Assembly (NCBI RefSeq): GCF_002006755.1
Contig: NZ_MVDO01000243.1
Span: 1-35,557 of the forward strand
DNA length: 35,557 nucleotides
Reading direction: 5' to 3'
Source of the DNA: Wohlfahrtiimonas larvae
GTDB lineage: Bacteria; Pseudomonadota; Gammaproteobacteria; Cardiobacteriales; Wohlfahrtiimonadaceae
Part shown: one piece after another, positions 6,365-33,386 of the stretch
How positions within the stretch are numbered: position 1 is the stretch's first letter
Layout: each line of letters starts with the position of its first letter
Notes under the pieces: model-generated
Databases searched by the model: none
Told to the model about the DNA's origin: nothing
Seen by the model: only the letters and a program-made list of their open reading frames with translations
Made by a program: the position numbers and the translations under genes

Positions 6365-7202
6365 GCCCAATCGTAATGCGATCGTTTTTACCCAAATCTT
6401 TTAAGGTTGCTACATTCTGATAACCTTGCTTCGTGAACTCAGTGCGTAATTTTTCACCTTGCTCAAAACCATGCTCCATCATCAACCAGCCATCTTCTTT
6501 TAATAATGGCCAAGATGTTTTAATTAAATGGAATAGATCAGAATAACCATTATCACCTGCGACCAAAGCGGTGATTGGTTCATATCTTACGCCATCCTCC
6601 ACTAAATGCTCATCATGCTCTTCTATATAAGGCGGATTCGATACGATTAAATCAAAATCATGACCCTTAACATTACTGAACCAATCACTTTGTATAAACT
6701 CCACATCCAAAGATAATCGCTCACCATTGTCTTGCGCAACGGATAAAGCTTCCAAGGATTGATCCACTGCAATCACTTTAGCATTAGGACGATGCTTTTT
6801 AAGCGTTAAAGCAATTGCACCACTACCTGTCCCCATATCAATCACTTTATATGAATCATCACCCTGCATTTTTGATAATGCAGTTTCCACCAACAACTCA
6901 GTATCTGCTCTTGGAACCAAAGTTGCAGGTGTAACTTTTAAAGTTAAATCATAAAACTCTTTTTCCCCAGTTAAATAGGCAAATGGCATACCTGAAGCTC
7001 TTTGCTTGACCAAATTTGCATATTGAACATACTGGTCATGTTCTATTTTTTTCTCTGGAAAAGCAATGATTCGACTACGATTACACTGTAAAACAAATGC
7101 TAATAATGATTCAGCTTCAAATTTCGGATTCTCTAAATGAGATAACTCCATAACAGATTCACCAATAATATTTTGATACGTTTTCACAATAAATTTAGCC
7201 AT
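6357..7202 (-). CDS. prmC: Peptide chain release factor N5-glutamine methyltransferase
   Basis: SAM-dependent enzyme that methylates the GGQ glutamine of release factors RF1 and RF2, improving translation termination. The product is 281 residues, against 277 in E. coli. An N-terminal helical recognition domain (about 1-90) leads to TPATLVPRADTELLVE (91-105). The SAM-binding motif MGTGSGAIAL (123-132) and the catalytic NPPY (189-192) follow, then VRYEPITALVAGDNG, all as in E. coli PrmC. The ATG at 7202 has no strong ribosome site, and a downstream ATG at codon 18 would lose the family's first helix. In many gammaproteobacteria prmC follows prfA, but here it stands alone, convergent with the moaA unit and divergent from the exporter gene. 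Confidence 0.95.
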   Translation of the reverse strand: MAKFIVKTYQNIIGESVMELSHLENPKFEAESLLAFVLQCNRSRIIAFPEKKIEHDQYVQYANLVKQRASGMPFAYLTGEKEFYDLTLKVTPATLVPRADTELLVETALSKMQGDDSYKVIDMGTGSGAIALTLKKHRPNAKVIAVDQSLEALSVAQDNGERLSLDVEFIQSDWFSNVKGHDFDLIVSNPPYIEEHDEHLVEDGVRYEPITALVAGDNGYSDLFHLIKTSWPLLKEDGWLMMEHGFEQGEKLRTEFTKQGYQNVATLKDLGKNDRITIGQK

Positions 7203-24649: not shown

Positions 24650-24676
24650 CTTTGGATTAATTGGTCTGAGGTTAAG

Positions 24677-24699
24677 CTGTGGATAACTTTGTGAATAAT
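24677..24699 (+). repeat. 23-bp direct repeat, copy 1 (paired DnaA boxes)
   Basis: Identical over 23 bases to 24856-24878. It contains TGTGGATAA and TGTGAATAA with starts 12 bp apart. The two copies are 179 bp apart, about 17 helical turns. Confidence 0.85.
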
Positions 24700-24799
24700 C
24701 ATCACAGCATCGTTAAGATTTTGGTATATAGCTCATTATCCAAAGTCAGATCAAAGATTAATCAGCATTTGTAAAGCTGATAATTTCAGGCAGTTTCAA

Positions 24800-24833
24800 A
24801 ACTTATTTATAACTTATGAGTTTTAAATAAGTT
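24800..24833. repeat. AT-rich inverted repeat inside the DnaA-box region
   Basis: AACTTATTTA (24800-24809) and TAAATAAGTT (24824-24833) form 10-bp inverted arms separated by 14 bases. It abuts the perfect DnaA box at 24832. Such AT-rich sequence beside DnaA boxes is where an origin's unwinding element would be expected (inference). Confidence 0.6.
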
Positions 24834-24855
24834 ATCCACACTATTACATATCAAA

Positions 24856-24878
24856 CTGTGGATAACTTTGTGAATAAT
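24856..24878 (+). repeat. 23-bp direct repeat, copy 2 (paired DnaA boxes)
   Basis: Identical over 23 bases to 24677-24699, ending 1 base before the trkH stop codon. With the plus-strand box at 24832 it also forms a 12-bp inverted repeat: AAGTTATCCACA (24829-24840) against TGTGGATAACTT (24857-24868). Confidence 0.85.
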
Positions 24879-24879
24879 A

Positions 24880-31829: not shown

Positions 31830-33386
31830 ATGAAGCTAACGCCTGAGCAAGATGCCATTCTTGCAATTGATGCTAATTTAAAAGTGAATGCCGTTGCCGG
31901 TTCCGGTAAAACGACAACGATCGTCGCATATGCAAAATCCCGCCCCAATGATGCAAAAATTCTATATTTAGCGTTTAACCAAACTGTTAAACAAGAAGCT
32001 ATTCTGCGATTTCAACAGGCAGGTTTATACAATGTCACTGTAGAAACAGCCCACTCTTTAGCATTTCGTTACATTGTTAGACGCGGTGGTTATCAACTTA
32101 AGAATAATGGCTATTCCATTCCCGAAACGGTCAATATTTTAGATCTGCAATCATCCATGCCGATTCAGCGTGCTTATTTATTCGCGCATCATATTGATAA
32201 ACTACTTCGATTCTATTGCAATAGCTCTGTCAAAAGTGCTGATGAATTAGATTATTTCAGCTTACTCAGCGATGATAAAGCCAAAGCTTTTGTGAAAATG
32301 AATTATTCGGAAATTGTGGATTATACGAGAACTTTCATTCGCAAAATGAACCAAGCAGAGATTGAAATTACCCATGATTTTTATCTCAAAAAATTCCAAT
32401 TGGTGCGCCCTAACCTACCTTACGATTATATTTTCTTTGATGAAGGACAAGACGCATCTTCCGTGATGCTCGATATTTTCTTAAAGCAATCTGCGAAAAA
32501 GATGATCGTGGGCGATCGCCACCAACAAATTTATAGTTGGCGTCATGCTGTGAATGCTTTGGAAGAAACGGACTTTACAACCTTTCCTTTAACAAAAAGC
32601 TTCCGTTTCCATTCGGATATTGCCCTTTTGGCTGAATCCATTTTGGAATGGAAAAGCTACTTGCACATTAAAGATAATTTAACCATTGAAGGCGTGGGCA
32701 CAACTGATAACAAGCATCAAAAAATTGTTTTAGGACGAACAAATTTAGGTTTACTCCGTGAAGCCATTCGCTATATTCATGATCCATCCTTAACAGGCTC
32801 TATCTATTTTGAAGGTAGTATTCATGCTTACACACATACGGAAGAAGGTACTTCTTTGTATGATGTGGTGAACTTGCATTTGGGTAAAATTGATAAAATT
32901 CATAGCCCAATGATTAAATCTTTCGAGAACTTAGAATCTTTGGAAGAATATGCAGAGGAAACCAACGATACACAACTTAAAATGCTCATAGAATTGGTGC
33001 GTTTATATGGCGCTAAAATCTTTGGTGTGATGAAAAAGTTAAAAGATCGCTTAGTAGCCAAAGAAGATAAAGAAACAGCTGATTTACTCTTTTCCACCGT
33101 GCATCGCAGCAAGGGTTTAGAGTACGATGAAGTTTATCTTGTAGAAGATTTCATCACCGAAGATGAAGTGAAACGTTTATCAAAAAATTCTGATGATTTG
33201 CAAAATCTTAAAATCATCGAAGAAATTAATTTATTATATGTTGCGATTACACGCGCAAAACACACCATTTACATTGCAGAAAATATGTTGCCGAAGGATT
33301 TTCCTCAATTGCCACACATTAAGATCATGAATCCGAAAGTGCGAGTGAATTATCTGCAAGAGTTTTACAATTTGGGAAGGAAATAA
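31830..33386 (+). CDS. UvrD/Rep-type superfamily 1 helicase, compact FBH1-like form
   Basis: ATP-dependent DNA helicase-like protein of 518 residues, clearly shorter than UvrD or Rep (about 670-720). Motifs in order are Q-motif-like LTPEQDAIL, Walker A AVAGSGKTTT (Lys27), motif II FDEGQD (204-208, with Gly replacing the usual Ala of DEAQD), motif III GDRHQQIYSWRHAVNAL, motif IV FRFHSDIA, motif V VHRSKGLEYDEVYL and motif VI LLYVAITRAKHT. The layout and motif III wording resemble FBH1-type helicases, which in eukaryotes limit recombination. The bacterial role is not established. The ATG at 31830 has a weak ribosome site. It is followed 3 bp later by an ArsC-family gene. Confidence 0.85.
   Translation: MKLTPEQDAILAIDANLKVNAVAGSGKTTTIVAYAKSRPNDAKILYLAFNQTVKQEAILRFQQAGLYNVTVETAHSLAFRYIVRRGGYQLKNNGYSIPETVNILDLQSSMPIQRAYLFAHHIDKLLRFYCNSSVKSADELDYFSLLSDDKAKAFVKMNYSEIVDYTRTFIRKMNQAEIEITHDFYLKKFQLVRPNLPYDYIFFDEGQDASSVMLDIFLKQSAKKMIVGDRHQQIYSWRHAVNALEETDFTTFPLTKSFRFHSDIALLAESILEWKSYLHIKDNLTIEGVGTTDNKHQKIVLGRTNLGLLREAIRYIHDPSLTGSIYFEGSIHAYTHTEEGTSLYDVVNLHLGKIDKIHSPMIKSFENLESLEEYAEETNDTQLKMLIELVRLYGAKIFGVMKKLKDRLVAKEDKETADLLFSTVHRSKGLEYDEVYLVEDFITEDEVKRLSKNSDDLQNLKIIEEINLLYVAITRAKHTIYIAENMLPKDFPQLPHIKIMNPKVRVNYLQEFYNLGRK

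Follow-up and report, generated by a model that had tools for sequence, protein, structure and literature searches.

Which function is served by a dense cluster of DnaA boxes that lies 3′ of trkH and away from dnaA? The cluster was found in a 35,557-nucleotide stretch of DNA (the window), contig C161 of the 2.5-Mb Wohlfahrtiimonas draft genome G000 in 282 contigs. Judged from sequence comparison, the trkH site is probably a DnaA regulatory element resembling DARS2 and not an origin, a reading to which we give a probability of about 0.55.

DnaA boxes in the gap beside trkH

The initial annotation described five exact DnaA boxes in this gap. Four of them belong to a 23-bp paired unit that is present in two identical copies at a distance of 179 bp. 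Exact matching recovered the coordinates and strands of all five, and both units were re-found in the window sequence (Table 1). The additional box with one mismatch was also located. The gap at 24650–24879 is indeed gene-free and AT-rich, with 29.6% GC versus 37.2% for the whole window, and it lies between two convergent gene ends. The inverted repeat is real by DNA folding (−8.9 kcal/mol, z −5.8); strong as it is here, alignment shows no conservation in the relatives, and it was dropped as a conserved part of the element.

Table 1. Features of the trkH gap, in window coordinates
Feature	Position	Strand	Sequence	Remarks
Coiled-coil ORF, 167 aa	24146–24649	+		3′ end convergent with trkH
Place of box I, unit 1	24664–24672	+	GTCTGAGGT	six mismatches; box lost
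23-bp unit 1	24677–24699		CTGTGGATAACTTTGTGAATAAT	
DnaA box II, unit 1	24678–24686	−	TTATCCACA	exact; conserved in G001, G002 and G003
DnaA box III, unit 1	24690–24698	−	TTATTCACA	exact; 12 bp after box II
One-mismatch box	24736–24744	+	TTATCCAAA	not conserved
Fis-binding consensus	24749–24763		GATCAAAGATTAATC	consensus match; +71 from box II
Degenerate counterpart of the relatives' +105/106 IHF site	24784–24796	+		by alignment; three mismatches
AT-rich inverted repeat	24800–24833			DNA fold
DnaA box I′, unit 2	24832–24840	+	TTATCCACA	exact; 25 bp before box II′, spacing as in G002
23-bp unit 2	24856–24878		CTGTGGATAACTTTGTGAATAAT	identical to unit 1
DnaA box II′, unit 2	24857–24865	−	TTATCCACA	exact
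DnaA box III′, unit 2	24869–24877	−	TTATTCACA	exact; adjoins trkH stop codon
trkH, stop codon	24880	−		

The window contains six exact TTATNCACA matches, five of which fall inside 200 bp. Two exact boxes per 200-bp stretch was the maximum among 2000 resampled sequences, versus the five observed, so the clustering is far above chance. A box count over the whole draft genome found groups of more than three exact boxes (linking distance 180 bp) only here and on contig C129.

For the 167-aa coiled-coil ORF no relative was found among five further Wohlfahrtiimonas genomes. Together with a DUF922 gene it separates glnE from the trkH element, while glnE directly adjoins the element in G002. Elsewhere in the window, nt 31830–33386 encode a short UvrD/Rep-like helicase of 518 residues, which matches only N- and C-terminal helicase.

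A layout shared by two loci

The trkH site was compared among the window's genome, W. chitiniclastica DSM 18708 (G001), G002 and Wohlfahrtiimonas sp. G9077 (G003); the contigs of G004 and G005 end near the glmM ortholog and do not show it. Alignment shows that the site 3′ of trkH (225014–226477 on C2 in G001) is kept in all three relatives. Absence of the boxes from related genomes had been named beforehand as an argument against a conserved role; boxes II and III and the layout are present in G001, G002 and G003. The gene on the far side of the element varies, being glnE in G002 and another gene in G001.

In these three relatives box I, TTATCCACA or CTATCCACA, lies 14 bp before box II and faces boxes II and III, giving a core with steps 0/14/26; that of G002 reads TTATCCACA-cttcc-TGTGGATAA-ttt-TGTGAACAA. 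The Fis consensus is located +71, +70, +71 and +71 from box II in G000, G002, G001 and G003. An IHF consensus follows at +105 in G002 (one mismatch) and at +106 in G001 and G003 (no mismatch). Box II and box II′ are 179, 177, 179 and 179 bp apart in the four species. The spacer of G001 and G003 carries a 6-bp deletion and a compensating 7-bp insertion, and spacing of the 179-bp class is still kept. The IHF site is near the midpoint between boxes II and II′, suggesting a loop that would join the core and the distal DnaA. The Fis ortholog in G001 is located after dusB, with 51% identity over 73 residues. IHF genes are expected to be present in Wohlfahrtiimonas; they were not located in the sequence stretches examined.

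The box cluster 3′ of trkH was not found in other genera, as judged from the plus-strand cases G005, G006, G007, G008, G010 and G011. In sister genera (G007, G008, G010, G012) about 10 kb separate trkH from dnaA; in G001 and G003 the two genes are on different contigs.

The same composite layout is found in the gap between eda and kdsB. There the 0/14/26 core is present in G000 (contig C239), G004, G005, G002 and G001, with a Fis consensus at +70 from box II in 5 of 5 Wohlfahrtiimonas genomes and, in 4 of 5 including G000, a mismatch-free IHF consensus at +104/105. At the kdsB site of another genus of the family, Fis is at +71, IHF is at +105 with one mismatch in 3 of 4, and box I has two mismatches. 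The Fis position at kdsB, +70/71, recurs in ten genomes, and several carry a weaker box of the same orientation at +184 to +186. This DARS-like element (G000:C239:4657–4677, L029), conserved among Wohlfahrtiimonas genomes and also found in a second genus, is intact. No more than roughly 80 kb separate it from the skew-inferred terminus in G001.

A scan of 2.53 Mb for the composite layout returned the trkH and eda-kdsB loci and no third. By resampling, the chance per sequence is about 0.001 for Fis at its offset and about 0.0005 for IHF without mismatch, and below about 1e-4 for both at one locus; these figures are guides and not independent tests, because the same data both yielded the offsets and served to test them, and because the species are relatives of one another. 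The trkH and eda-kdsB sites are not homologous, and their equal offsets therefore point to a single nucleoprotein architecture. In a set of 72 distinct paired units, the upstream facing box is by far most often at offset 14 (12 times), followed by 26 and 25.

Other paired units, conserved pairs of which some have facing boxes, do not display the Fis +70/IHF +105 layout. They precede a guaA-like gene and adk, clpB or pssA, or lie inside lolC/E-like and other coding sequence. Upstream of the GMP-synthase-like gene and adk lies a four-box array with steps 0/14/26/38, one box facing three (G000:C6:12715–12761, L195). It is conserved in G000, G002, G004 and G005, without the Fis/IHF layout. The gene at L195:3078–4370 encodes a 430-aa protein with a GMP synthase C-terminal domain and no Pfam match to the glutaminase domain. 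The unit by pssA (G000:C96:3638, L232) is nearly identical to the G001 trkH core (TGTGGATAATTATGTGCAT) and is conserved in G002, G004 and G005, again without Fis +70/IHF +105.

The window copy departs from this pattern. The strict 0/14/26 core is absent, as unit 1 has no box I and unit 2 runs 0/25/37, and the IHF counterpart has three mismatches; the window copy is not classed as a DARS member on these grounds. With box I gone from unit 1 and the IHF match largely lost, this copy is perhaps remodelled or weakened. The Fis consensus expected of a DARS2-type element near the core is in place. Box I′ stands 25 bp out, as in unit 2 of G002, and unit 2 is a strong group of three boxes whose box I is displaced outward by one helical turn. 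The window copy is a homolog of a DARS2-like element; it would act as such an element today or have done so in the past, and it may still be active.

Origin, promoter or DnaA sink

The initial annotation proposed a replication origin or a DnaA sink. Literature search found nothing on the replication origin of Wohlfahrtiimonas. The GC skew suggested as a check was run in the relative G001, on contigs C1, C2 and C4. On C2 the skew is positive on either side of the trkH locus at 226 kb. On C1 its sign passes from plus to minus in the interval of about 620–650 kb, which is likely the terminus, and there is no switch at dnaA (85 kb). On C4 it is negative to about 110 kb and then positive, with one near-zero bin. 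The switch, at C4:111 kb, coincides with a box cluster beside a gene for a 255-aa amino-acid-binding protein. Its G000 ortholog is the gap at C129:6455–7143 (L030), with 78% AT and six exact boxes (6664–7083), flanked by a 104-aa ORF and the amino-acid-binding protein gene. This cluster is conserved and denser in G001, G002 and G003, and the C129 gap is likely the true oriC. No exact boxes were found around dnaA in the whole 11-kb contig C210. In G001 the oriC-candidate ortholog and dnaA are on different contigs (C4 and C1:85 kb), at least about 150 kb apart.

Thus the origin half of the proposal falls. DnaA boxes within AT-rich DNA would suit an oriC; however, the sign of the skew changes at the C4 cluster and not at trkH, and the better, conserved cluster is that of the C129 ortholog, leaving almost no chance that the trkH site initiates replication. 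The part of the proposal that stands is a DnaA-binding locus remote from dnaA. Promoters are often regulated through DnaA boxes, and a DnaA-controlled promoter of a neighbouring gene might be considered. The gap, however, lies between convergent 3′ ends in the window and G002, and in G001 and G003 as read from sequence, which makes such a promoter very improbable. The trkH element could also be a relic, a decayed second copy whose work is done by the eda-kdsB element; the latter is intact in the same genome, and box I and the IHF site lost here are kept in relatives. Neutral decay would hardly leave five exact boxes, two units identical over 23 bp, the Fis site and the 179-bp spacing, so that we consider plain decay unlikely.

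The sink half of the proposal deserves more weight. An IHF-organised DnaA cluster like datA would promote hydrolysis of DnaA-ATP or simply titrate DnaA. Apart from oriC, no other site in the draft genome groups more than three exact boxes, five lie within 200 bp here, and the DnaA groups on both sides of an IHF-type site recall datA. Canonical Hda is unrecognised at the curated cut-off, so another negative control would be useful; nothing scored above this cut-off in any of the 21 genomes (0/21), yet only one control exceeded it, so that absence of Hda cannot be claimed. On the other side, the boxes of E. coli datA lack the 0/14/26 facing core seen at trkH in relatives, and the Fis position is conserved, Fis being a partner of DARS2 (PMC4245941). 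The box geometry in relatives and the common Fis and IHF positions appear to fit the DARS class better than datA, and a datA-like sink is a possible but rather doubtful explanation.

A probable DARS2-like element and its known counterparts

In E. coli, boxes I and II face each other, bind ADP-DnaA molecules head to head and stimulate the release of ADP, and DARS2 is activated by IHF and Fis (PMC8682772, PMC4245941). The intact form of the present element, as found at trkH in the sister species and at eda-kdsB in G000, consists of a three-box core, with box I facing II and III at 14- and 12-bp steps. The core is followed by sites for Fis (+70) and IHF (+105) and, at about +180, by a second one for DnaA. 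Bending of the spacer by IHF and Fis would bring the distal DnaA site back onto the core. The ADP-DnaA molecules that face each other on the core would then give up their ADP, and DnaA would regain the ATP form ahead of initiation. Protein binding, looping and ADP release at the site are what we infer from this arrangement; the boxes, their conserved spacing and the layout common to two loci, outside the origin, are read directly from the sequence.

DARS elements have been described as conserved among E. coli-related gamma-proteobacteria (PMC4245941), in eight species reaching Vibrio and Shewanella (PMC8682772). We tentatively suggest, at somewhat less than even odds, that Wohlfahrtiimonas and the second genus control DnaA by a distinct two-locus DARS-like module outside the published range of DARS2. 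This module would combine a core of facing DnaA boxes with sites for Fis (+70) and IHF (+105) and, at about +180, a distal one for DnaA, which at trkH would have grown into a second core. If so, the same core with another Fis/IHF order in another gamma-proteobacterial order would make timed recharging of DnaA older or more flexible than thought. The natural spacing variants would also offer a means of testing how bending by IHF and Fis brings about the release of ADP.

Several features set the trkH site apart from the known systems. The oriC of Wohlfahrtiimonas (G000:C129) likewise has DnaA boxes, including 12-bp-spaced pairs, but it has a skew switch and a longer AT-rich gap and lacks the composite layout. 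E. coli datA (glyVXY-queG) also places several DnaA boxes round an IHF site in an intergenic gap. Its boxes are far apart and without the facing 14/12 core. In the relatives a DnaA group lies on either side of the IHF position, but with boxes in another arrangement than in datA.

The E. coli DARS1 core, TTATCCACT-attcc-TGTGGATAA-cca-TGTGTATTA, and the DARS2 core, TTATTCACC-ttttc-TGTGGATAG-agt-TGTGAAGAA, both have the 0/14/26 steps of the relatives' trkH cores. DARS1 (bioD-uvrB) shares this geometry and the CCTGTGGATAA centre; it differs from the present element in that the scan found neither an IHF match there nor a Fis match close by. DARS2 (rppH-mutH region) is alike in having IHF and Fis consensus sequences on the box III side of the core and more DnaA boxes distal to them. 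Against the DARS2 reading stand the missing strict core and the three IHF mismatches of the window copy, as well as a different gene neighbourhood, beside trkH, and the order core-Fis-IHF in place of core-IHF-Fis. In DARS2 the IHF-type sites are at +79 and +95 and the strict Fis match at +131, whereas here Fis (+70) comes before IHF (+105), and the distal site for DnaA comprises a complete paired unit at constant phase.
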